Source: a virus. From it: 24,650 bases of DNA. Under the pieces are notes generated by a model that saw only the letters and a list, made by a program, of their open reading frames with translations, did no database searches and was not told where the DNA came from. The stretch spans positions 1-24,650 of the IMG/VR virus record IMGVR_UViG_3300006802_000536, one strand, 5' to 3'. Within the stretch, counting starts at the first letter, position 1; the number at the start of each line of letters is the position of its first letter. Positions 7,211 to 20,202 of the stretch are shown one piece after another. The translations under genes and the position numbers were made by a program.

Positions 7211-9955
7211 CTATCTAGATTCCCTAAACAGTGGTAAATACGACCTACGCACAAAGGTGTTTTGCACTTCTTGGGAGTATTGGTGAGCCCAGTCAGCACC
7301 TCCAGGACGATACAACTGGATGTGAACATGGCCATTAGCGCCTTTACCAGTCCCTGAACGACCTGGGCGGCTATCAGAAGGACCAACACCGTCCCCAGAT
7401 ATACCAAGCACTGCTCCGCGATTAATGCGATCTCCTGCTTTAACTTTTAACGTAGCTAGGTGTGCAACACGCACTAGGTCTCCTTTTTGATAGCCAGGTC
7501 CAGCAGCAGAAGCTCTAATAACAACAGCTAAACCAAAACCACCTTGACGCCCAGCTTCAACAACTTGACCACTAAACGGAGCAGGAATTGGGTTTGCAAT
7601 TTGACCGTTTTGACGTTCAACAACAAAATCAACAGCTCGGTTCTGAGAATGACCGTGATGCCAGTTGGTAATAATAATTGCAGTGTTTTGAGGTTTTGTT
7701 CCGCTGCTAGCGCTTGCAACACGCAAAGATTCTTGAAGTTTACGAGCGTTTTGTACAAAATTAGCAGGGAACGTTTTACGGTTGTAAAACCTGTTGGTTT
7801 GTAATTTAACCAACTCTTCGGTTGTAATTCTGTTGTTAAACGCTCTTTGAAGATTAGTAAGACTACGACGAGTGCTGTTACTAAGTTTTGATGGGTCGCC
7901 AGTTTGAAGTGCTGCGTTTACTTCTCCTATTTCAGTTTGATTAAGAACAAAATTGTTTCTAAGATAATTACGCATGGCACCAACATTAGTGCCAAATTTT
8001 TGAGAAGCAACAGAAGCAAACGCTTGACGGTTGTCAGTATCGTTAATGTTAATTTTCCAAGGTTTAGTAGTACCACCACCTTGAGCAGCGTTATCGTTAC
8101 CAAGAGCTGGTCCAGTTGCAGGTTGTCCAGTAGTAACGTTTGAGTAGGCGTCTACGTCGTTATACTCGGGTCGTGCGTAAAAGACAGACTGTGCGCGTTG
8201 AAGAATTTCAAACTGAACATTAGGGTCAGAAATGTCTTTACCAGCACGTTCAGCTTGTCGAAGTTGTTCATTTACATAAGCGCTTGCTTCAGCGCGGAGA
8301 CGTGGAGATGCTTGAGTTACAGCAGTGTTAAGGCTGTCTTTAGCAATTTCTTTTGGTTGGCCTTTTAAACCAGAAGCTTTAGCATACTCTGGATCTTGTT
8401 GAAAATTACCTTTAAGACCATTTACAAGATCTTTAAGAATTTGATTTTTAGGTGCTTGAAAATCAACACTAGATGCTTGCCTAGCAGCATTAGCAAACTC
8501 AGTTATAGCTTTACCTAAAAGAGTAGTACCTTCAAGTCGATCACGTAGATCTGCAGGTAGTTCAGTTTCACCGTTATTAATACGGTCTTGAATTTCTGCT
8601 TCAAGAAGTGCTTGATCAGTAGGACCAAGTTCTTTGGTTTGGTATGGATACAGTTTGTCTATTTGCTCGTTTGCTTCAGCAAGAGACACACCTTCTGGAA
8701 GTAGCCCAAGACTTGCTGCTTCTAAGTTTCCTGCTTTAGCAAATGTTCTTTGTTCAGTAATTTGTGCTTCTGTAGGAGTAGGGTTATTAGCGTAAAAAGT
8801 AACTGAATCAGTAGTTAGCGCTTTAAAATATTCACGTTTTTTACGTTGAATGTTACGTTCAAGAGCTGCTTGGTACGTTTCACTGCGTTTTAAAGCTTGT
8901 GTAGCGCCAGCTTCAAGAATATCTCTAAACGTTTGTCCTTTAGAGTTTCTTAAATCTGTAAGAGAAATACCGTCTTTAGTCTTAATTTGACCAAGAGACC
9001 GGACCATATTTACAAAACCATAAGCCTCACCAATGTCGTTGTAGCTATCTTTATCGTTATCAATAAACAAACGACCAAGCTCACTAGAAAGAACTTCGTG
9101 GAATTGCTTTTCAGTATATCCTCGAACATTTACAAAATAGTTGTACGCTTCGTTGTAACCTTGTTGGACTTGTTGCTGACCAAGCAACATACCTTGAGCA
9201 GAACCTACTGAACCTTTAATTAAAGAAGCACCAAGGTTCAACCCACCATAAAACTTATCAACGGCTGTTTGTGAATCAGTAAGTACTTTGCGTTGATATG
9301 CTTTTTGAATAACATCTTTTTTGATGTCAACAAGAACGTTACTAATCTGAGGGTCAATTTTTGCAGATACAAACGCACTAGGAATGTCTGCATACGGATT
9401 AAGAAGTTCTTTAGTTTTAACAGCAATGGCTGCTGCACGATCATCTTCAGGCAGCTCAGCAAGCATGTCTGCGTTTTGCTTGCCCCACATTCCTAGATCA
9501 ACAGCTACAGAACGCCCAGCGTTAGTAGCTTTAGTGTCGTAGTAGAAATAGTTAACCCAAGGGTTACGAAGCTGGTTTTGACGTGCTAAAGCTTCTTGAT
9601 TGTTATCTCGAAGGATACGAGTTTCTTTAGCGTTATCTAAAGAGTCTTGATAAGCCCTGCTTTCAGAAGACAGGAGGTTAAGCGCTTCTTGCTTTTTCTG
9701 AGCTTTATAGTTTTCAAACGCACCTTTTTGAGTTTGATCATAAACACCGCCTTTAGCTAAAAAGTTTTCAATGCTTCGAAGGCTTTGCTCAGTGGCAGTA
9801 TCAGGTTGAAACTGACGACCATAAATTAGTTGACCACCAACACGTTGAGGAGTTTGAGCAGGCTCAACAGGTTTTGGTAGCGCTACTGGTGCTTCGGGGG
9901 TAGCTACAAGATCACGAATTTGACGTTGGGGCGTAATACCAAAACTGCTGGTCAT
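7211..9955 (-). CDS. Internal virion protein, T7 gp15-like position, with C-terminal M23 peptidase-like domain
   Basis: This 914-aa protein lies between the gp14-like and gp16-like genes. Its ATG overlaps the upstream stop (ATGA). T7 gp15 (747 aa) is an ejected core protein that spans the periplasm. Most of the chain is Gln/Ala/Lys-rich and probably helical. The last 150 residues look like an M23 (LytM/lysostaphin) zinc endopeptidase: a strand with D776 (NRAVDF, 772-777), GQVVEAG (796-802), VAHL with H832, the hairpin KVKAGDRINRGAVLGISG (837-854), and HVH at 876-878. In M23 enzymes these supply a zinc Asp, a catalytic His and the final His-x-His. The usual first zinc ligand (His in HxxxD) is Asn772 here, although His766, 767 and 769 are close. 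Such a domain could cut peptidoglycan cross-links during genome entry. Whether it is active is open. Confidence 0.8.
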   Translation of the reverse strand: MTSSFGITPQRQIRDLVATPEAPVALPKPVEPAQTPQRVGGQLIYGRQFQPDTATEQSLRSIENFLAKGGVYDQTQKGAFENYKAQKKQEALNLLSSESRAYQDSLDNAKETRILRDNNQEALARQNQLRNPWVNYFYYDTKATNAGRSVAVDLGMWGKQNADMLAELPEDDRAAAIAVKTKELLNPYADIPSAFVSAKIDPQISNVLVDIKKDVIQKAYQRKVLTDSQTAVDKFYGGLNLGASLIKGSVGSAQGMLLGQQQVQQGYNEAYNYFVNVRGYTEKQFHEVLSSELGRLFIDNDKDSYNDIGEAYGFVNMVRSLGQIKTKDGISLTDLRNSKGQTFRDILEAGATQALKRSETYQAALERNIQRKKREYFKALTTDSVTFYANNPTPTEAQITEQRTFAKAGNLEAASLGLLPEGVSLAEANEQIDKLYPYQTKELGPTDQALLEAEIQDRINNGETELPADLRDRLEGTTLLGKAITEFANAARQASSVDFQAPKNQILKDLVNGLKGNFQQDPEYAKASGLKGQPKEIAKDSLNTAVTQASPRLRAEASAYVNEQLRQAERAGKDISDPNVQFEILQRAQSVFYARPEYNDVDAYSNVTTGQPATGPALGNDNAAQGGGTTKPWKININDTDNRQAFASVASQKFGTNVGAMRNYLRNNFVLNQTEIGEVNAALQTGDPSKLSNSTRRSLTNLQRAFNNRITTEELVKLQTNRFYNRKTFPANFVQNARKLQESLRVASASSGTKPQNTAIIITNWHHGHSQNRAVDFVVERQNGQIANPIPAPFSGQVVEAGRQGGFGLAVVIRASAAGPGYQKGDLVRVAHLATLKVKAGDRINRGAVLGISGDGVGPSDSRPGRSGTGKGANGHVHIQLYRPGGADWAHQYSQEVQNTFVRRSYLPLFRESR

Positions 9956-10992
9956 GACGTTACTTGAATCGGTTGGGGTTGAGGAGGCTGCATAGCCTGA
10001 TAATTATTCAAAGCTTCTAAAGCAATAGAACCAAGGTTAATGCCTAAAGCAGTCGAACTGGGTTTAGATGTAGGAGCAGGCTCAGCAATTTGAATTGGTA
10101 GAGGAGCTAAAGGTTTTACTGGGTCAGCAATTGGTTGTGGGGTGTAGAAACGAACTTGGCTGATCTGGTTTTCACGAGCTACGTTTGCTGCTTCTCCAGC
10201 TCTTAGTTTATCTGCAACTCTAAACTTAGTAGTAATTTGACGGTTGCTTAGGTTTGCCAAATACTGCTGGTCGTACTGCTGCTTGAGAGCTTGAACAGTT
10301 CTACCTGCCTGTCCTTTAGAAGCAACACGAGCCGCTTTAGCTTCAGCTTCAAGGCGTAGGTTATCTAGCGCAATAGTGTCCCTAGCTTCTTCTTCGTAAA
10401 ACCTACCTTCAAGATCAGCAAGCTGACGTGCAAAATTATTAGTAGCTGCAACTGCTACGTCAGATTTGTATTGTGCTTGCTGTTCTTGTAGTTGTGCTTC
10501 GTATTGACGACGCTTTTCTACGTAGTCAGCAGCTTTGTAATAAGAGTCAAGTTGATACTCATAGTTACGTAGGTTTTCTTGTTGTTGGTTTGCTACTTGA
10601 GCCCAATAACGTTTTTTAGCTTCAGCATCTTGACGTTCAGCTTCTTGGCGTTCAAACTTGTCACGCTCAACGGCTGTAAAGGCTTTCATTGCTGCACCTG
10701 CCATGTTCAAAATAGATGGCAAGCTAAACAGATCGTTACCAGGCTTTACTGATTTATCTTGTCGCTGTTGTGGTGTAAAACCTACAGGTTCAAAAATGTT
10801 TGAAAGGTCATTAAACTGCCTGTAATCAATACCTAAACCAAGGTCAACATCAAAACCAGTTTCAAACGGAACGTTTAGCTCGTTAGAGATGTCTGAAAAG
10901 GTATCAAAATTAAGATCATAATCAGATGGGTTTAAACCAAGACCAGAATCAAAATCAAGCCCACCATCAAAACCAAAAAAGCTGTTTGTCAT
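9952..10992 (-). CDS. Internal virion protein, T7 gp14-like position
   Basis: This 346-aa protein sits between the gp12-like tail gene and the gp15-like gene, the place of T7 gene 14, whose product is ejected and forms the outer-membrane part of the entry channel. The first 60 residues are acidic and rich in Gly, Asp and Phe (repeated GFDGG, GLGL and GLGID patterns). A short apolar stretch near 90-105 (LPSILNMAGAAMKAF) is followed by a long Gln/Glu/Ala-rich helical region (about 108-250), probably coiled coil. The C-terminal part (280-346) is Pro-rich. The start overlaps the upstream stop by one base (TAATG) and its own stop overlaps the next ATG, so translation is likely coupled. The assignment is by context and composition; no catalytic motif is visible. 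Confidence 0.75.
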   Translation of the reverse strand: MTNSFFGFDGGLDFDSGLGLNPSDYDLNFDTFSDISNELNVPFETGFDVDLGLGIDYRQFNDLSNIFEPVGFTPQQRQDKSVKPGNDLFSLPSILNMAGAAMKAFTAVERDKFERQEAERQDAEAKKRYWAQVANQQQENLRNYEYQLDSYYKAADYVEKRRQYEAQLQEQQAQYKSDVAVAATNNFARQLADLEGRFYEEEARDTIALDNLRLEAEAKAARVASKGQAGRTVQALKQQYDQQYLANLSNRQITTKFRVADKLRAGEAANVARENQISQVRFYTPQPIADPVKPLAPLPIQIAEPAPTSKPSSTALGINLGSIALEALNNYQAMQPPQPQPIQVTS

Positions 10993-13900
10993 TAGCCGTA
11001 CTTCCTAGCAACATCAAAATACAAACCAGTCCATTCCAAAGCAATGAACTTTGCTTGATCAATGCTTGAGTTTACTAGTTCTACTGTAACTTGATCGTTT
11101 TTGCTTTGGATGTAAGCTCTAAATTTAGCTTCTTCAAAAGGTTCTTCTTCGCTTACAACAATGTTTGCGTTAAGAGGATCCCGACGATCAAACTCGTAGG
11201 TTACTTTATCGCGGTAGTAAGGAGTAACTTCTACTGTAAAGTAACGGGCATCGTTGTAGTAAACATCCATATACCGAAGCTGTAAACGACCAGTGCGGTT
11301 ACCAATGAAAGTGTTATCGGTCGCTGTTCGGCTATAAGGCATAAGCTGAGGCGGTCTAAAAGTGAACGTATATTGCTCACCAAAGATCCAAGAACTATTT
11401 GAAAAATCTCCCAAGCTATCGCATACAAAACTAGTAACACCAGCAGGCACGGAGTTAGCCACAATCCAACGTTTTTGAGATTCTGACGCATCTGAAGAAT
11501 CAACTTTTTGAATAATAAACTGACTAACGTTAGTAGTGCGGTAAGGAAGGTTGACTGTAGTTTTGTTAGTACCAGCGTTGTAAGTAAACGTTGCTGTACC
11601 AATGTCAGTAGTAATAGAACTAGAGATTTGACGATCAAGAAGATAAAGATCGTTTGCTTCTTGAGGAGGTCGAGAAGCGTTCAAACCTTCTAAATAAAAC
11701 TCAGCTGTACCACTGTTATCGTATTGAACCAAACTATAAAGAGTACCTTCAACAAAATCACACCAATGAATGTTTTTGTTAGGGAAGGTCCATTTATGCC
11801 AAGCGTTTTGTCTGTTGGTTAAAGAGCCTCCTGATGCTTCCCAGAAGAACTGATACACAAACAACGAAGAAGGTTCATCGCTGCTCAGTCCTACAAGATA
11901 TTGATCAGTTCTACTAACAGCAAGAGAATCAAGATTCTTAGGAATGTATTTAGGAACAGTTTCCGTAATGACTGCTGTTTGTCCAAGGTTAATACCAACG
12001 GTTCGGTCAGTAGTAATGAAGGTGTGAAGACCTGTAAAGTCGCCTTCTTTAACAGGGAAAATTACCTGCGGTCCAACCTGTTTAGGTTTAACTCGCGACT
12101 CCATACTGATGGAGCTAATCCGACCCACAGAAGCAGTCTCAGGACTAAACGTAACGTTATCACCAGAGTACAGACGGAACTGGTTTTCGTTAGAAAACAA
12201 CACAAGTTCATCCTGTTGCTGCAACGCGTAGTTCAACACAGCAACGTCGTTACTAACTGCTGTCAAATCAATGGTGTCACTGTCTACAACTTGAAGAGCT
12301 GACTGCTGCCAAAAATTGTAATAAGAACCAGCTTCACTGAGAATGACGTTTTCACCGCTTACAAAGCCAAGACGGTTTTTGAAAAACACAATATCGTTAA
12401 TTGCTTTTTCAGCAAACGATGGTCCTGGTAGTTCATCTTCATCACCAGCTAAACGGTTAGTCCAACCAGGAATGTCAAATGAAACTGTACCGTCTGTGTA
12501 AGCAGAACCAGTAAACGGTTGAAACGTAAACCTTGTAAGACCGTTTTGGTTCTTGTAATAAATAAACGCATGAGGCATGGTCGTTTGATCAAACTGACCA
12601 CGAGTACCCCACCCGCTACTTTCTTCCCACACACCACGTCCATAGTCACCATTAGTAGTGGTGTTTTCTGCGTTGAACTTTAGGTAGTACGAGCTTTGTT
12701 CTGCAGCACCATCAGGAGCCACAAGAACCGTATAGCCCTCCCAAGACGAACCAGGAAGCTCTGTAATAGCTGTTACTTGATTAGAAAATCCATCCATCAA
12801 GGTGTTACCACGAGCATCAGTAGCTTCAATGCTCGCAATGTAACGAGAGGAATTTGTTAGGCCAATAAGGATTTGAGATCCTTGACGTTCAAAAGTAAGT
12901 TGGTTATTAATGTCTGTTTGATCTAAACCTTCGCCAAGAGTCAGGGTTGTAGATCCGTTTGCTGTTGCGTTTACAGAAGTACCTGTGTAGCTAACAAGGG
13001 TAAAGCTATTAGCAGCCACAGTGCCTACAAACGTATTTGCAGGAATACCAGTGCCAGTAACCTTTTCTCCTGTTTGTACTTTTGCAATGTCTGTTGTTGA
13101 GACGCTTGTAACAGTGTTACTGCCGTTTGTAGTTGTACCTGCAATAGTGTCAGTATTGCTAATTAGTTTGGCAGCGATGTCTGCAGTGCTTACAACGTTT
13201 GCGTTACCGTTTTGATCTGTTAAAGAAGGCGTAATGTGGTTACCACGAATCACTTCTCCGTTATCAAGAGTGACAATAACTTGATATTGAGTATCGTAAT
13301 CAACAAACTTAACAGTTACCTGAGCTTTAATAGGTTGATATTCAGAGCTAATTTCTCCAATGTTAAATCGAGTTAGCGTTTCTGAGCTGTTGTATTCTGT
13401 GTTCTTTTGAATGTTAGTAACGAACACATAGTCTTGAAACGACGTAGCCCTAAACCGATCACGAGCCCTACCAGAGCCACGTAGATACCCAAGATTTCCT
13501 GACGTGATGTTTGCAAAATCTTGCTCTACAGGAACGACGGTAGGAAGAATACCGCTAATCGGTTCAACGTTAGAAACGCCAGTAACAAAAGTACGACTAG
13601 ATTCAACCGTTAAAGAAACCCCTGAATTTGTAGCAGTAGCGTTTTTATCAAGAGTAATCCGACTAGTAGCAGTATCAATATCAACGATTTTAGTGTTAGC
13701 AGGAATACCAGTACCAGTAATACCAGCTCCAACAAACAAATCTGCAGTAGAACTTACAGAAGTAACAACAGATGATCCATTAGTAGTGTCACCTGTTGGA
13801 GTAACAGTTCTACTATCATCAACCACCATCAAAATAAACCGCTCATTAGTACTGCGGTTATAGACAAAGCAAAAAGCTTCATCCCATTTAATTGGTGTAG

Positions 13901-14105
13901 TTAAAGCTTGACCACCAGCATTCTGTGTAAGAGTGTCTACACGTTTTACAGGAACTGATCCGAGACGTTTTTTGAGACCTTCAACCAGATCGCAATTAGC
14001 GTTTTCAAGAACTTTTGCAAAACCTGGCAGCACAAAACTGTCAGCTTGTTGATTAATACCTTTGTTTAACGGACCAATAATTTGGCTATAAAGTTCTCTA
14101 GACAT
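10992..14105 (-). CDS. T7 gp12-like tail tubular protein B (nozzle)
   Basis: This 1037-aa protein is the tail nozzle candidate: it follows the gp11-like gene with a TAATG junction and precedes the core protein genes. The N-terminus (QIIGPLNKGINQQADSFVLPGFA, about 8-30) and the stretches KNRLGFVSGENVILSEAGSY and FSNENQFRLYSG are typical of gp12-type tail proteins, in which such residues build a beta-propeller. T7 gp12 is 794 aa. Much of the extra length comes from two copies of a Thr/Ser/Gly-rich beta module at residues 106-168 and 323-390, both carrying TNGS, TSVS and GTGIPANT. The C-terminus (ALEWTGLYFDVARKYG) is also gp12-like. By family the protein forms a hexameric tube at the tail tip, gated until adsorption. 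Confidence 0.9.
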   Translation of the reverse strand: MSRELYSQIIGPLNKGINQQADSFVLPGFAKVLENANCDLVEGLKKRLGSVPVKRVDTLTQNAGGQALTTPIKWDEAFCFVYNRSTNERFILMVVDDSRTVTPTGDTTNGSSVVTSVSSTADLFVGAGITGTGIPANTKIVDIDTATSRITLDKNATATNSGVSLTVESSRTFVTGVSNVEPISGILPTVVPVEQDFANITSGNLGYLRGSGRARDRFRATSFQDYVFVTNIQKNTEYNSSETLTRFNIGEISSEYQPIKAQVTVKFVDYDTQYQVIVTLDNGEVIRGNHITPSLTDQNGNANVVSTADIAAKLISNTDTIAGTTTNGSNTVTSVSTTDIAKVQTGEKVTGTGIPANTFVGTVAANSFTLVSYTGTSVNATANGSTTLTLGEGLDQTDINNQLTFERQGSQILIGLTNSSRYIASIEATDARGNTLMDGFSNQVTAITELPGSSWEGYTVLVAPDGAAEQSSYYLKFNAENTTTNGDYGRGVWEESSGWGTRGQFDQTTMPHAFIYYKNQNGLTRFTFQPFTGSAYTDGTVSFDIPGWTNRLAGDEDELPGPSFAEKAINDIVFFKNRLGFVSGENVILSEAGSYYNFWQQSALQVVDSDTIDLTAVSNDVAVLNYALQQQDELVLFSNENQFRLYSGDNVTFSPETASVGRISSISMESRVKPKQVGPQVIFPVKEGDFTGLHTFITTDRTVGINLGQTAVITETVPKYIPKNLDSLAVSRTDQYLVGLSSDEPSSLFVYQFFWEASGGSLTNRQNAWHKWTFPNKNIHWCDFVEGTLYSLVQYDNSGTAEFYLEGLNASRPPQEANDLYLLDRQISSSITTDIGTATFTYNAGTNKTTVNLPYRTTNVSQFIIQKVDSSDASESQKRWIVANSVPAGVTSFVCDSLGDFSNSSWIFGEQYTFTFRPPQLMPYSRTATDNTFIGNRTGRLQLRYMDVYYNDARYFTVEVTPYYRDKVTYEFDRRDPLNANIVVSEEEPFEEAKFRAYIQSKNDQVTVELVNSSIDQAKFIALEWTGLYFDVARKYG
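12936..13139 (-). repeat. Second copy of beta module inside the gp12-like gene
   Basis: It encodes residues 323-390 of the nozzle protein and matches the module at 13602-13790 in order: TNGS, then TVTSVSTTD, then VTGTGIPANT, then SFTL and a closing TLTL strand. The GTGIPAN segment is also similar in the DNA, suggesting duplication within the gene or gain of the same mobile domain twice. Confidence 0.7.
13602..13790 (-). repeat. First copy of beta module inside the gp12-like gene
   Basis: It encodes residues 106-168 of the nozzle protein, carrying TNGS, VVTSVSSTAD, ITGTGIPANT, RITLDKNATAT and SLTV. The order matches the copy at 12936-13139. Modules of this look occur in various phage structural proteins as add-on beta domains. 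That comparison is from memory. Confidence 0.7.
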
Positions 14106-14811: not shown

Positions 14812-16224
14812 TCAATAGGGATTGCCGTCGTGCAGCAGGCTGACGCAGCACTCAGGACGCAGGATGCCGTGACCCACAGCGTAGGAGGCAACCATCATGG
14901 TGGACTGAGTCATTGCTTTGTACTCAGCGCCAGTCATCTGCATGGACACGTCTTTCAGCGAGACGGTACCCACGGCTTCTTTGGTGAAGCACAGACCGAA
15001 GCAGTTAGCAATGGAGCTGCCGTTGCCTTGCTCGTCCTGGTAGTAATCGTTGGTACCAGCAGCGGCTTGACCGTCAGAACCGTCGCGACCGTTCACGTAG
15101 TTAGGACGCTCACCACGGGTGGTAGCGGCTTGGTTACCGATACCGACGTAGGTTTGGCCGTTGGTGTAAGCACCAGTACCCAGGTGGTTAGAGGTCACCA
15201 GACGGAAACCAGCCACTTGAGCAACACGGTTATCAGCGAAGGTGCCGTTACGGCCATCGCCACCGTTGAAATCTACGTTAATCGCACGATCGGAAGCCAG
15301 CACATCATAATATGCGCCAGGGCTCAGAACGCAGGTACGACCCTCTTTAGGAGCATCTTTTTCGTCCAGGGACTGGCAAGCCTTGAACAGGTTCTCAACG
15401 ATCAGATCGCCACGAGCGTTGCGGTCAGCAGCACCGTTGAGGTTGATGCCAGTGTAAGAGGTACCACCAGGCAGCGAGTTCAGAACGAACAGACGCTCGC
15501 CAACAGTGAAGGTGGCGTTAGAGCCAGTACCAATAGCAGAGATGGGGCTGATACCGAAGGTGGCAGCACCGTTGGTAGGAGCAGTAGTGATGACGGCATA
15601 AGCACCGGAATCCTCACCGTAGACAACTTCACCAACAGCCCAATAGGTAAGCTCAGCGGTAGCGAAGTTAGCGCTCATGGTGACGGTGGTACCAGACACA
15701 GAAGCGTAGGTGCCGCCAGCCAGTTGGAAGCGCTTGGAATCCCAATCCTTCACACGACCGTCAGACTCAGAAGCAGTCAGCAGGGTGCGAGCAAGACGCT
15801 GGTCATAGGCCCGAGCAAGAGCACGTCCCAATTCCTGCGAGTAGATGCTGCGAACATCCCAGTGCAGTTTGGCCTCTTCTAGGTCATAAATTGATGCATC
15901 GGCAATAAGCAGATCATCGATCGTGATGATCTTCTCACCGATCATGCCTTTGTTACCTTGACCAGTGATCCAATCACCAGGGCGATGATAGCGGCTGCTG
16001 AAACGTCCCGTAATTGGGAAGCTTGCAGATTTTCCAGAGGAAATGCTGCGCTTCATCGTGAGGTCTTTGAAGACCGTGTCACGGTTGAAGGTGGTCAGAA
16101 CTTCCCCAGAAAAGATTTTCAGGAAGTTAGCGTTTTCACGCTCGTAGTTACCGGCGGCAGAACCAGCGTTGTACTGAACGCTGTTAATACTACCCAACCG
16201 GCTAAGAGATGCAAAATCTGGCAT
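14812..16224 (-). CDS. Major capsid protein, T7 gp10-like, with insertion
   Basis: This 470-aa HK97-fold capsid protein has clear gp10A signatures: FSGEVLTTFNRDT (38-50), KRSISSGKSASFPITGR (58-74), EKIITIDDLLIADASIYDLE (97-116), DVRSIYSQELG (123-133), KEAVGTVSLKDVSM (415-428) and YAVGHGILRPE (448-458). T7 gp10A is 345 aa and marine cyanopodovirus capsid proteins about 375 aa (from memory), so some 90 residues are extra. Most lie at about 170-262, a Gly/Thr/Ala-rich beta-type stretch with VGEVVYGEDSGAYAVITT; a smaller Gly/Asn-rich one lies at 363-405. The gene looks richer in G/C-ending codons than its neighbours, which fits very high expression. No Shine-Dalgarno sequence precedes the ATG. 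A hairpin with two repeated motifs lies upstream and a terminator follows. Confidence 0.95.
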   Translation of the reverse strand: MPDFASLSRLGSINSVQYNAGSAAGNYERENANFLKIFSGEVLTTFNRDTVFKDLTMKRSISSGKSASFPITGRFSSRYHRPGDWITGQGNKGMIGEKIITIDDLLIADASIYDLEEAKLHWDVRSIYSQELGRALARAYDQRLARTLLTASESDGRVKDWDSKRFQLAGGTYASVSGTTVTMSANFATAELTYWAVGEVVYGEDSGAYAVITTAPTNGAATFGISPISAIGTGSNATFTVGERLFVLNSLPGGTSYTGINLNGAADRNARGDLIVENLFKACQSLDEKDAPKEGRTCVLSPGAYYDVLASDRAINVDFNGGDGRNGTFADNRVAQVAGFRLVTSNHLGTGAYTNGQTYVGIGNQAATTRGERPNYVNGRDGSDGQAAAGTNDYYQDEQGNGSSIANCFGLCFTKEAVGTVSLKDVSMQMTGAEYKAMTQSTMMVASYAVGHGILRPECCVSLLHDGNPY

Positions 16225-16939: not shown

Positions 16940-17128
16940 TCAGCCAATACGAACAGTCAGATCAGGATAAACCCAAACTGGTCGCTTTTGACGTACTGCT
17001 GCTACATATTGATCGTAAACAGCAGGCTTTTCTTCCCGAAGACGCTCGAGAAGAATCTGCATTTCCGATTTAGGTTCTTGCTTTTTAACCTCGGCTTGCG
17101 GTTTCTTGGTCGGTCCTGATTGAGTCAT
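16940..17128 (-). CDS. Small hypothetical protein between portal and scaffold
   Basis: This 62-aa protein starts MTQSGPTKKPQAE, with a Lys/Pro/Gln-rich first third, a helical middle (MQILLERLREEKPAVYDQYV) and a closing RPVWVYPDLTVRIG. It overlaps the portal 3' end by 44 bases and its stop lies two bases before the scaffold ATG, so it belongs to the head operon. A TTG five codons upstream (17143) would also be in frame, but neither start has a strong ribosome site and ATG is preferred. I do not recognise the family. Location suggests a head accessory or assembly role, which is inference. Confidence 0.7.
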   Translation of the reverse strand: MTQSGPTKKPQAEVKKQEPKSEMQILLERLREEKPAVYDQYVAAVRQKRPVWVYPDLTVRIG

Positions 17129-18668
17129 TTTCAGCTTTGACAAGTGCGGCTTGTTTTGCAGGATCGTTTTGTGGATCTTGCTGTGCCATTTGTTGCTGCA
17201 TCATCATAGCTTGTTGTTGATCTTCTGCCATCAATTGTTCTTCAGATTTAATAAGTTTGTAGGTATCAAGACCATCAGCAGCAGCAAGGCGTGTGATCAA
17301 CTCACGATTATCGACAAACCGAGCCATTGTTTCTGGACCAAGAGTTCCAGCAATAGTCTGAAGAAACTCAATCAGTTTGGCTTTATCGTTTCCACGTCCA
17401 AGTGCGTCTAGACCTGTAGTGATCTGAGGTCGGACAATATCTTTAGGAAGTTTAGGTAGACGCTTTTGACGCTCCATGAGAGCCATCTTGCGTTTGACTA
17501 GAGGAAGCTGCAACTCAACAGACAGCACGGAGTAAACCCCACCGAGTCCGCTTTCCAGTTCGTTTGCAACCATTTTGATCTCTTCCGCTGTGACGCGGTC
17601 ACGACCAGCAGCACCAGCTTGAATAGCGCTGTTAAGAAGAAACGCAAAACTCAGTCGTTGTTCAATACGAGCAATAGTATTTAGAGCAACAGTCAGATCG
17701 GCTTGTTTCTGCATCTGCAGAGGAGCCACATCATTAGGGTTTCCTGCCACGATCGAACCGTTTGCAGCTCGAGCTAGTGCATCAGGTCGAGTAGTACCGT
17801 TTGGATTGCAAAGGAAAATGATCTTTGCTGCTGCTGCAGATCCTTCAACAATTGCTTTTGAAAGATACTCAAGGCTTTTAAGATCACCAAGAAGTTCTTC
17901 TACATAACCACGTCCGTAGCTTTCGTGAGCTACTCGGAACATACGTAGAGGAATCCAAGGGCTTTTCTCAATAGGAGAAGAACCGTTTTTACCTACTTGT
18001 TTTCCGTAAGCTTCTTGATACCAAATACACTTATCTTTTTCGTAATCCCAAGTGATATAGGTATAAAGGAAAACAGTTTTATCAACAAGTTTACCGTCAA
18101 CATTTTTAGGTGCAGTTCCATCAGGAAGAAGATCAGGACTAACCTCTTCACGAACTACAGCTTCAAGAACGTTACCTTCTGGGTCACGGTTAACTACAAA
18201 AGACTTAAGTGGGTAAACCCTAGTACCGTTTTCTGCAATGTAAAGCAGAGCGTTGCCACCAATGATTAGATGCTTAAGTGCTTCAAACAGTGCAGTGCGA
18301 TCACCAGACTCTTCAATGTCACGCATGACGGAACGTTCCATCAGCGCTAGTTGTTGATCAAACTGCGACTGAAGTTCTTTATAGTTTTCTAGTTCTTGCT
18401 TGAGCTTCATATCGTCTACAGAGAGACGAAAGAAGGATTGATTAGGAGGGAGCAAAGCAATCAAAAGTTTGCTTGCCAAATTATTTACACCACGAGCACC
18501 AAGACCTTGGTACGTAGTTTGGATCTTGGTGTAATAGTTTTTACCCGTGCTGCGATCGTTATCGGTAATAAGAGTCGGCAGGGTGTATTTACTACACTCA
18601 ATAGCGCGATCAAGGTAGATGCTTTTTTCCGGCTCTAGTGCCGAATAACGAGCTGCAGCTTTAGACAT
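17085..18668 (-). CDS. Portal protein (head-tail connector), T7 gp8-like
   Basis: This 527-aa protein matches the T7 gp8 family in length (536 aa) and motifs: TTYQGLGARGVNNLASKLL (about 51-69), LLPPNQSFFRL (about 72-82), the ESYGRGYVEELLGDLKSLEYL stretch, and RDRVTAEEIKMVANELESGLGGVYS. By family it forms the dodecameric ring through which DNA is packaged and leaves, and it nucleates procapsid assembly with scaffold. The C-terminus is rich in Gln and Met (QQQAMMMQQQMAQQ) and probably flexible. The ATG overlaps the upstream 211-aa gene by eight bases. The 3' end overlaps the next small gene. Confidence 0.95.
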   Translation of the reverse strand: MSKAAARYSALEPEKSIYLDRAIECSKYTLPTLITDNDRSTGKNYYTKIQTTYQGLGARGVNNLASKLLIALLPPNQSFFRLSVDDMKLKQELENYKELQSQFDQQLALMERSVMRDIEESGDRTALFEALKHLIIGGNALLYIAENGTRVYPLKSFVVNRDPEGNVLEAVVREEVSPDLLPDGTAPKNVDGKLVDKTVFLYTYITWDYEKDKCIWYQEAYGKQVGKNGSSPIEKSPWIPLRMFRVAHESYGRGYVEELLGDLKSLEYLSKAIVEGSAAAAKIIFLCNPNGTTRPDALARAANGSIVAGNPNDVAPLQMQKQADLTVALNTIARIEQRLSFAFLLNSAIQAGAAGRDRVTAEEIKMVANELESGLGGVYSVLSVELQLPLVKRKMALMERQKRLPKLPKDIVRPQITTGLDALGRGNDKAKLIEFLQTIAGTLGPETMARFVDNRELITRLAAADGLDTYKLIKSEEQLMAEDQQQAMMMQQQMAQQDPQNDPAKQAALVKAENDSIRTDQETASRG

Positions 18669-19296
18669 TCAATCCACCAATACGGGTTCCAGTAGTAGCG
18701 CCAGTTCCTCCTCCGCTTCCAATTGCAAGAGCTGAACCAATGTCAACACCAGTTCTCATGCTTGCAGGAGTTCCGGTCCGCTTGCGAACCCGTGAAGAAA
18801 CAGGAGGTCGTGCCTCTTGTGAGCGAGCCATAGCAGCTTGAAGCTGACGCTGTTGAATAGCAAGTTTAGACGAAGCTTGCGCTTGTGCGATTTGCCGACG
18901 CGAAGATTTTTCAGCTTGTGCAATCTGTGCTTCAGAAGCTTGCTGTGCTTGTGCAATTTGAGCAGCAGAAGTTTTACGAGCTTGAGCTAGCTGTGCTTTC
19001 GATTGCTCTTGAGCTTGTTGCGCTTGCGTTTGAATAGCAAGGGTGCGTCCCCTAAGAGCTTCAAGTTCTTTTTGAGATGCTGCTGATTGCTGTGCAAGCT
19101 GAGCACGCATTTGCTCTTGTTGCTTAATAGCAGCTTTACGTGTAGCTGTTGCTTGTTTAATAGCAGCGTCAGTAGAAGCTCTAGAAAGCTTTGCTGATTG
19201 TTTAAATTGTGAAGCTTTTTGCTCTCTCGTTTTGTAAGCAGAGTAAGCACCTAAACCTGCTGTTGCGAGAGAGACTAGAGCGTTAAGCCAACTCAT
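18661..19296 (-). CDS. Ala/Gln-rich coiled-coil protein with hendecad repeats, probable tail/ejection protein
   Basis: This 211-aa protein starts with an apolar stretch (WLNALVSLATAGLGAYSAY, 3-21), possibly a membrane-interacting helix. A long Ala/Gln helix follows (about 25-160). Residues 101-144 are four 11-residue repeats: AQLAQARKTSA, AQIAQAQQASE, AQIAQAEKSSR, RQIAQAQASSK. Residues 170-182 (VRKRTGTPASMRT) and the tail at 189-211 (LAIGSGGGTG, ending GGLNV) are shared with the 247-aa protein encoded at 19459-20202. The tail also resembles the end of T7 gp7.3, a small virion protein needed for the tail and ejected with DNA (from memory). AGAGGAGAG seven bases or so before the ATG is a good ribosome site. 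Role in the virion is inferred from this and from the position just before the portal gene. Confidence 0.8.
   Translation of the reverse strand: MSWLNALVSLATAGLGAYSAYKTREQKASQFKQSAKLSRASTDAAIKQATATRKAAIKQQEQMRAQLAQQSAASQKELEALRGRTLAIQTQAQQAQEQSKAQLAQARKTSAAQIAQAQQASEAQIAQAEKSSRRQIAQAQASSKLAIQQRQLQAAMARSQEARPPVSSRVRKRTGTPASMRTGVDIGSALAIGSGGGTGATTGTRIGGLNV
18865..18996 (-). repeat. Four tandem 33-base units encoding 11-residue coiled-coil repeats
   Basis: The units encode residues 101-144 of the 211-aa protein. On the plus strand each unit contains a version of gcttgtgcaatttg at 33-base spacing, while the rest of the unit has diverged. They likely arose by tandem duplication, and the number may vary between related phages. 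Confidence 0.8.
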
Positions 19297-19462
19297 ACTT
19301 ACTCTCCTCTTGAAGCTTTAATTGCTCTTTAAGATGTCTAATTACTGAAATCTGCCCAGCATAAAACCAAACAGCCTTCTGATCCATACTAAGATCAGGA
19401 GCTTTATCTGGATACATTTCATCTAGATATTTAATAATATCAGGATCAATATAAACGTTCAT
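19283..19462 (-). CDS. Small hypothetical protein between the two coiled-coil genes
   Basis: This 59-aa frame starts at ATG 19462, overlapping the stop of the 247-aa gene (ATGA), and ends at TAA 19285-19283, inside the next gene by 14 bases. The protein (MNVYIDPDIIKYLDEMYPDK at the start, then LSMDQKAVWFYAGQISVIRHL in the middle, and a charged end) reads like a folded helical protein with normal codon use. Without it there would be a 162-base gap in an otherwise tightly packed operon. I do not recognise a family. Coupled translation with its neighbours suggests a role alongside the two coiled-coil proteins. Confidence 0.8.
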   Translation of the reverse strand: MNVYIDPDIIKYLDEMYPDKAPDLSMDQKAVWFYAGQISVIRHLKEQLKLQEESKYELA

Positions 19463-20202
19463 ATATTTAAACCAGTAGGAGTAAGTTGACCAGCACTGGT
19501 ACCACCATAGCCACCAACGCCGCTTCCTACAGTAAGACGAGTACGAGCTACGCGTGGCTGTCCAACAGGTGTTTTAGCTGCTGCTGGTTGAGTACGAAGC
19601 TGTTCTGGAGAACCGACTTTGGTTCGGACTTGTCCAGACTTAGCAGCTTGGGTTTGTGCAGAAGCAGCGGCTGCGTAGCGTTTAGACATAGCTTCAGCAG
19701 CTTCAGTAGCTTGTTGAATTTTTGCTTCTGCTTCTGCTCGTGATTTTTCAATTTCTGCAAGACTTCTAGTTCTTTCAGCTTCTGTAGCTGCAATTTGTTG
19801 ACGTGCAGAAGCTTGAGAAGAAGCAAGACCTTTTTGAGCAGCTGCAATTTCTTTAGAAGATTGAGCAATAGCAGCTTGAGTAAGTCGCCGTTGTTCAGCA
19901 ACTTCTGCAGCATAAAGATTTTCTTGACGAGTTAGTTCAGTTTGAATCAATCCGCCATAATAGTTTTCAAAATTTTGTGCGTATTTAAAAAGAGAACCAC
20001 CAGATTGATAACCTTTTCCTTTTGTTTCTCCACGAAGGACAAGGTTTTTAAAATTGTTAATTGCAAAGTCCCTAGACCTTTGCTGACTGTAAGCTCGCTT
20101 TCCATCGTCACCCAACTCACGTTCAGCTTCCCGCATAATTTCAGGAAGAAAAACATTACGAGCGTATTGATCGATTAAAGATTCTCTAGTAGGAAAGGCC
20201 AT
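19459..20202 (-). CDS. Ala-rich coiled-coil protein sharing the C-terminal tail domain, probable tail/ejection protein
   Basis: This 247-aa protein has an N-terminal globular-looking part (1-90; TRESLIDQYARNVFLPEIM near the start, aromatic FKYAQNFENYYGG at 72-84). A long Ala/Glu/Gln helix follows at about 91-188, probably coiled coil with partly 11-residue spacing. The C-terminus holds QVRTKVGSPEQLRT (191-204) and LTVGSGVGGYGG (223-234), ending GLNI. The last two elements appear in the same order in the 211-aa protein encoded at 18661-19296. T7 gp7.3 ends in a similar Gly-rich run plus Asn-Ile (from memory), which points to a virion tail or ejection role. It lies 20 bases after the reductase beta gene, with only a weak ribosome site. 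Confidence 0.8.
   Translation of the reverse strand: MAFPTRESLIDQYARNVFLPEIMREAERELGDDGKRAYSQQRSRDFAINNFKNLVLRGETKGKGYQSGGSLFKYAQNFENYYGGLIQTELTRQENLYAAEVAEQRRLTQAAIAQSSKEIAAAQKGLASSQASARQQIAATEAERTRSLAEIEKSRAEAEAKIQQATEAAEAMSKRYAAAASAQTQAAKSGQVRTKVGSPEQLRTQPAAAKTPVGQPRVARTRLTVGSGVGGYGGTSAGQLTPTGLNI

Follow-up and report, generated by a model that had tools for sequence, protein, structure and literature searches.

Two predicted rod proteins with homologous C-terminal tails and matched lengths at the gp7.3 position of a P-RSP2-like, T7-related phage

The window analysed here, a 24,650-base IMG/VR virus record (IMGVR_UViG_3300006802_000536), encodes on its minus strand two neighbouring proteins, X (247 amino acids, aa) and Y (211 aa), which are best explained as paralogue-like structural proteins occupying the gp7.3 slot in a T7-related phage that resembles P-RSP2. 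Comparison with relatives demonstrates, at the level of sequence, that the two proteins share a C-terminal tail, that heads have been swapped between them, that their lengths are matched and that a gp14-like protein co-varies with them; their bodies are predicted by modelling to be long single helices. We tentatively favour the view that X and Y are co-assembling, tail-anchored rods acting with the gp14-like protein in DNA ejection. No description of the X/Y pair or of its length matching was found in the literature searched. The two proteins are laid out as follows.

19459..20202, minus strand: X, an open reading frame (ORF) of 247 aa ending PTGLNI; the upstream member of the pair, with a helical head, a single long helix and a conserved tail
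19996..20202, minus strand: X head (aa 1-69), with three short helices at 6-56 (AlphaFold2) and a head type that varies among relatives
19621..19995, minus strand: X rod (aa 70-194), one continuous predicted helix of variable length, with 11/18-residue periodicity in the family
19591..19629, minus strand: extra VRTKVGSPEQLRT stretch of X (aa 192-204), present only in the window and the sister contig L085
19462..19566, minus strand: X tail (aa 213-247), VGQPxxxxTR...GGYGGT...PTGLNI, predicted disordered
18661..19296, minus strand: Y, an ORF of 211 aa ending IGGLNV, directly upstream of the portal gene (the gp7.3 slot)
18814..19251, minus strand: Y rod (aa 16-161), one continuous predicted helix
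18664..18789, minus strand: Y tail (aa 170-211), VRxRxGTPxxxRT...GGLNV, predicted disordered

Both ORFs, and the strings that an earlier sequence-only reading of this DNA had quoted from them, are present at 18661-19296 and 19459-20202 on the minus strand. That reading had proposed a shared C-terminal domain, duplicated and attached to different helical bodies, and the families to which X and Y belong bear it out. We gathered 86 X and 94 Y proteins from IMG/VR relatives by position and ending, the two families spanning about 80 related phage contigs. Bodies and heads vary among these homologues, whereas the C-termini hardly change, the X family ending in GQPGVSxTRVSx(4)GGYGGTAPGRVNPTGLNI and the Y family in RVGTPAALRTSLEIQS...GGLNV, and invariant residues fall almost solely in the tails (P216, T221, G230, G231, T243, L245 and N246 in X; R171, P177, R181, T182, G207, L209, N210 and V211 in Y). 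Profile-profile matching of the full families gave a probability of 94.7% (E 5.8e-8) over 77 columns, all of them C-terminal, and profiles restricted to the tails matched over 42 columns (E 1.3e-4), a result equalled by none of 60 column shuffles. The mutual recovery of the two tail profiles, which had been suggested as a check, was run with hidden Markov models (HMMs) against 13,863 ORFs together with their reversed sequences, and each model reached the other family ahead of all decoys. Beyond its own family, the X-tail HMM first hit Y proteins (E 0.002, against 2.3 for the first reversed decoy), and the Y-tail HMM first hit X proteins (E 0.0005, against 0.83 for the first decoy). Detection of this homology needed the relatives, because the window's own X-Y pair is barely detectable (BLASTP E 0.044). 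The resemblance described earlier holds, but its pairing of VRTKVGSPEQLRT in X with VRKRTGTPASMRT in Y as a general homology does not, and is replaced by the family-wide alignment, in which the counterpart of Y's VRxRxGTPxxxRT is X's VGQPxxxxTR (residues 213-222) and the VRTKVGSPEQLRT stretch is an additional similarity. We conclude from these sequence comparisons that the X and Y tails are homologous, beyond what chance would produce.

The heads have moved between the two families. An RHDAKFVDPxFYVDP head is carried by X in some phages, by Y in others and by both in one contig (L017), with swapped-head matches between X and Y reaching E 5e-15; no protein outside the X and Y families was found to carry it, and one of its carriers is a fragment cut off by the end of a contig. 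The usual Y layout consists of a short, hydrophobic, Gly/Ala-rich N-terminal helix, which could insert in a membrane, followed by the single long helix and the conserved tail. AlphaFold2, given 41 relatives for X and 46 for Y, predicted X 70-194 and Y 16-161 as single helices with pLDDT mostly >90 (mean pLDDT 80.6 for X and 78.9 for Y), so that at 1.5 Å per residue the rods would measure about 19 nm (X) and 22 nm (Y). The bodies are Ala- and Gln-rich and display an 11-, 18- and 25-residue periodicity, that is, a hendecad/heptad coiled-coil pattern, and the Y rod includes a 33-bp (11-aa) tandem repeat at 18913-18984. Simple pairing of the rods by opposite charge was considered and rejected, Y averaging +4.2 per 100 residues and X being near neutral (+0.7). 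Searches of X and Y against Pfam, PHROGs and PDB assigned no family, tblastn of either protein against 50,697 phage records gave no match, and weak scattered coiled-coil matches (e.g., to spanins) were discarded as compositional.

The lengths of X and Y rise and fall together. Body length was taken from the start to the tail motif, in data that are mostly metagenomic contigs, many of them short. Total lengths correlate with r 0.86 (61 distinct pairs) and body lengths with r 0.87-0.88 (slope 1.08), and contrasts corrected for descent on the portal tree give r 0.91 and slope 1.12 (n=56), a result that 20,000 sign flips never equalled; the neighbouring scaffold gene, used as a control, gives r 0.07. 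Between close relatives, insertions or deletions (indels) are matched exactly in X and Y, at 18/18 residues (L020 or L041 versus L010, L100 and L024), 54/54 (L024, L010 and L100 versus L080) and 72/72 (L020 or L041 versus L080), and 54-bp tandem arrays occur in both L080 genes. Portal genes recombine, which leaves the count of independent events uncertain, and the exact indel matches represent at least two steps. One could argue that such matching carries no function and that, both genes being repetitive, slippage or recombination has altered both within the same lineages. The in-frame 33- or 54-bp repeats in both bodies would fit this account, as would the related and mosaic nature of the sampled phages. 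It nevertheless seems quite improbable to us given the slope near 1, the exact 18, 54 and 72 matches and the scattering of long-rod states across the portal tree, and given that the gp14-like extension described below, 8 kb away and not a coiled coil, still follows rod length.

The third partner is encoded after gp12.

9952..10992, minus strand: gp14-like internal virion protein, 346 aa, matching PF24072 T7_gp14 at E 0.0017, below the curated cut-off, and positioned after gp12
10735..10992, minus strand: F/D/G-rich extension at the N-terminus of the same protein; only phages with long rods have it in a long form

The gene lies about 8 kb from X and Y, and the extension of its product is flexible. 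In the 18 longer records the length of the gp14-like protein follows the rods, while the lengths of the major capsid protein, gp12 and gp15 show no trend and that of the gp16-like protein does not rise either. The length of the extension, counted from the first residue up to N[FY]RxY, correlates with Y length at r 0.90 (20 distinct pairs). Where Y has at least 211 residues, the extension is always at least 129, and in all other phages it is at most 89; extension-Y contrasts computed for four gene sets yield r 0.83-0.91 (p 0.0004-0.016). In T7 the opened nozzle contains, once ejection has taken place, the channel formed by gp14 (PMC11784390), and in view of this role and of the co-variation, participation of X and Y in DNA ejection is the most economical reading. 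The same co-variation could also be expected if X and Y were extra members of the internal core, with rods reaching into the head and tying the core to the portal as T7 gp6.7 does, and with tails serving as packaging signals rather than nozzle anchors. This is an improbable arrangement in our judgement: the gene order does resemble T7 6.7-7-7.3-8, and T7 gp6.7 and gp14 do bridge portal and core (PMC11784390), but gp6.7 is without such a tail and the gp15-like and gp16-like proteins do not lengthen with the rods.

The position and ending of X and Y recall those of T7 gp7.3. Y lies directly upstream of the portal gene in relatives that hold the region and X two genes further up, and a comparable tail is borne across the T7-like phages by the protein encoded immediately before the portal. 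Both families carry the C-terminal G-[LIV]-N-[ILV] of gp7.3-type tails; of 1465 distinct ORFs situated in the 2.6 kb upstream of a portal gene, 119 end strictly in G[LIV]N[ILV], as against none of 6632 other ORFs. The sequence-only reading described the ending of T7 gp7.3 correctly; it is KKSLSVARSSGGGINI. An iterated profile search begun from Syn5 gp36 alone recovered 157 tails, among them 52 of the T7 gp7.3 type as well as the pelagiphage proteins, and no reversed decoys. All come from the portal-upstream slot: 153 are followed by a mapped portal gene at no more than 1.2 kb, and four belong to portal-upstream genes of named phages. T7 gp6.7 was rejected as a second tail bearer, its C-terminus being without the motif.

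In T7, residues 84-98 of gp7.3 have been solved by cryo-electron microscopy in six copies at the nozzle-adaptor junction, where each C-terminal loop sits on two adjacent gp12 nozzle subunits and K84 and K85 contact DNA, residues 1-83 being unresolved in the channel (PMC11784390). Because this loop is resolved on nozzle subunits, the C-terminus of T7 gp7.3 is a genuine docking tail. A gp7.3 homologue was detected by mass spectrometry in phiPsa17 virions (PMC4517105). The proposal that the X/Y tails dock for virion incorporation is plausible by analogy with the T7 gp7.3 loop alone, and the nozzle is their presumed docking partner, as extrapolated from T7 (PMC11784390). The resemblance also suggests that X and Y might be assembly aids like T7 gp7.3, which would hold the DNA end, help the nozzle attach and be expelled at the start of infection; their rods would then fill or line the portal-tail channel, and rod lengths would reflect channel geometry, with no external conduit. 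T7 gp7.3 has indeed been proposed as a nozzle-assembly scaffold whose unresolved N-terminus surrounds channel DNA (PMC11784390), and its gene slot and terminal residues are shared by X and Y. We consider this role unlikely, however, since the rods vary about two-fold while portal and nozzle, and hence probably the channel, keep nearly constant lengths, and since the gp14-like extension co-varies with the rods.

In the explanation that we favour, of tail-anchored rods that co-assemble and act in ejection, the tails would clip X and Y to the same site, by analogy with T7 gp7.3 probably the inner wall of the nozzle-adaptor junction. The X and Y helices would pack alongside each other in a mixed bundle, aligned in register and pointing the same way, and because of this register the rod lengths would have to match residue for residue. 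On ejection, the bundle and the gp14-like protein would form part of a conduit through the cell envelope, probably with the aid of the hydrophobic N-terminal helix of Y. Presence in the virion, docking on the nozzle, assembly into a mixed hetero-oligomer and a role in ejection are all steps that we infer. A more specific version, which we regard as rather doubtful, sees X and Y as a mixed helical tube or sleeve held on the nozzle by a duplicated C-terminal clip, its length stepped by coiled-coil repeats and tuned jointly with gp14, so that conduit length would adjust while membrane- or host-facing heads are exchanged.

Several observations weigh against the favoured explanation, or against its link to gp7.3. 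The Syn5 gp36-seeded profile did not recover X and Y (best Y E 3.5, best X E 42), and their similarity to the gp7.3-type family is limited to the last six residues, because shuffles preserving these ends scored as well in 14 of 50 cases for Y and 20 of 50 for X. In P-RSP2, the only cultured close relative, Y ends GALNV and the protein in the X slot is without the tail. The 1:1 length rule is not universal, since Y proteins with the RHDAKF head exceed the length that would be expected from their X partners. No significant Gln stripe was detected in X or Y, with only a weak 11-residue Gln periodicity in Y, and the amide/guanidinium-lined helix face diagnostic of the phiX174 H tube, sought here as a Gln-lined face or lumen, is therefore not supported. 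Finally, the X model had no Foldseek match below E 1 in BFVD and PDB. Neither X nor Y matched PF11653 or phrog_1320. The likeness to gp7.3 that the sequence-only reading had drawn is accordingly supported in part: the slot before the portal and the terminal residues agree, profile recovery of gp7.3 is the weak link, and family membership is not demonstrated. That reading did not extend to the matched lengths, the exchange of heads or the connection with gp14.

The minus strand of the window carries all late genes in T7 order, namely the nrd genes, X, a small ORF, Y, portal (gp8), scaffold, major capsid protein, gp11, gp12, the gp14-like gene and the genes for the gp15-position and gp16-position proteins. 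The neighbours most relevant to X and Y are listed below.

17085..18668, minus strand: portal, T7 gp8 homologue (phrog_449, E 1.5e-165), 84% identical to that of P-RSP2; fixed downstream neighbour
10992..14105, minus strand: tail nozzle, T7 gp12 homologue (phrog_457, E 7.7e-140)
19283..19462, minus strand: small ORF of 59 aa between X and Y, of the Syn5 gp35 type (phrog_4970), with motif GQxSVI/V

The 59-aa ORF overlaps both neighbours, its start sharing the sequence ATGA with the X stop and its end running into the Y start; in most of the marine T7-like phages examined, its relatives precede the gene just before the portal. Adjacent tail-bearing pairs occur elsewhere, as gp21 and gp22 of HTVC011P and gp24 and gp25 of HTVC120P. 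In the window lineage X lies across this conserved ORF from Y, whereas in pelagiphages both tail genes follow it, and because of this difference in placement the doublings probably arose separately in the two lineages. Many portal-upstream proteins start with Met-Cys and a Pro-rich or basic stretch, as in T7 gp6.7 (L104:5874-6125, L116:4250-4603, L117:5868-6125, L131:5877-6182 and L145:926-1240; also Syn5 gp36, P-SSP7_023 and T7 gp6.7 itself), and several have gp7.3-type C-termini, possibly uniting gp6.7-like and gp7.3-like ends in one protein. The slot usually holds a short protein, but in the uncultured phage MedDCM-OCT-S39-C11 (L438:1103-2986) it is filled by one of 627 aa ending NPLAGLQLA.

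The nearest named phage is Prochlorococcus phage P-RSP2, which has been placed in an outlier clade of cyanopodoviruses (PMC9860041), and a cyanobacterial host is therefore likely for the window phage, judging from this relationship. A P-RSP2-like late cluster also lies within the 125.8-kb contig IMGVR_UViG_3300042503_000838 (L440), about three times the P-RSP2 genome size, which could be a chimera, a concatemer or a larger phage. The gp15-position protein (7211-9955, minus strand) has a C-terminal Peptidase_M23 domain (Pfam E 3.8e-9), so that the cell-wall-cutting activity seems to reside in another core protein than in T7, where gp16 has it. The nozzle (1037 aa; 10992-14105, minus strand) and the major capsid protein (470 aa; 14812-16224, minus strand) are far longer than those of T7; the former includes two similar Thr/Ser/Gly-rich stretches with a GTGIPANT motif, and the latter a Gly/Thr/Ala-rich stretch.

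Only parts of the process by which short-tailed phages construct an envelope conduit have been seen so far, and "hypothetical" is the usual annotation for the small proteins encoded at the gp7.3 position. Our data delineate the gp7.3-type tail across T7-like phages and lead to a sharp, testable prediction, namely that X, Y and part of the gp14-like protein must keep matched lengths. If this is true, natural length variants will constitute a ruler series for the study of DNA ejection.

Among known systems, the phiX174 H pilot protein tube resembles X and Y in its long helix, 11-residue repeats and Gln-richness (PMC7354561), but it is a homodecamer of an unrelated phage type, and the likeness is one of analogy only. 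T7 gp6.7 and gp14 are ejected channel proteins; the window's gp14 homologue co-varies with X and Y, and Y has a gp14-like layout of a hydrophobic N-terminal helix plus a long helix, although neither X nor Y matches the gp6.7 or gp14 families in sequence. T7 gp7.3 (PF11653 VirionAssem_T7, phrog_1320; PDB 9jyz) shares with them the slot before the portal and a Gly-rich C-terminus that comes after a basic stretch and ends G-L/I-N-I/V; T7 has just one such protein, however, and its 99 aa include neither a long rod nor a head. Finally, the Syn5 gp36/HTVC120P gp25/LUZ100 gp33 tail family, delineated in this analysis, occupies the same slot, and its tail unites with that of T7 gp7.3. Its members are short, rich in Pro or Lys and usually single in a phage, and their tail core is of the SLRIPLN...GGGLNI type, as against GTPxxxRT...GGLNV in Y and GQPGVSxTR...PTGLNI in X.

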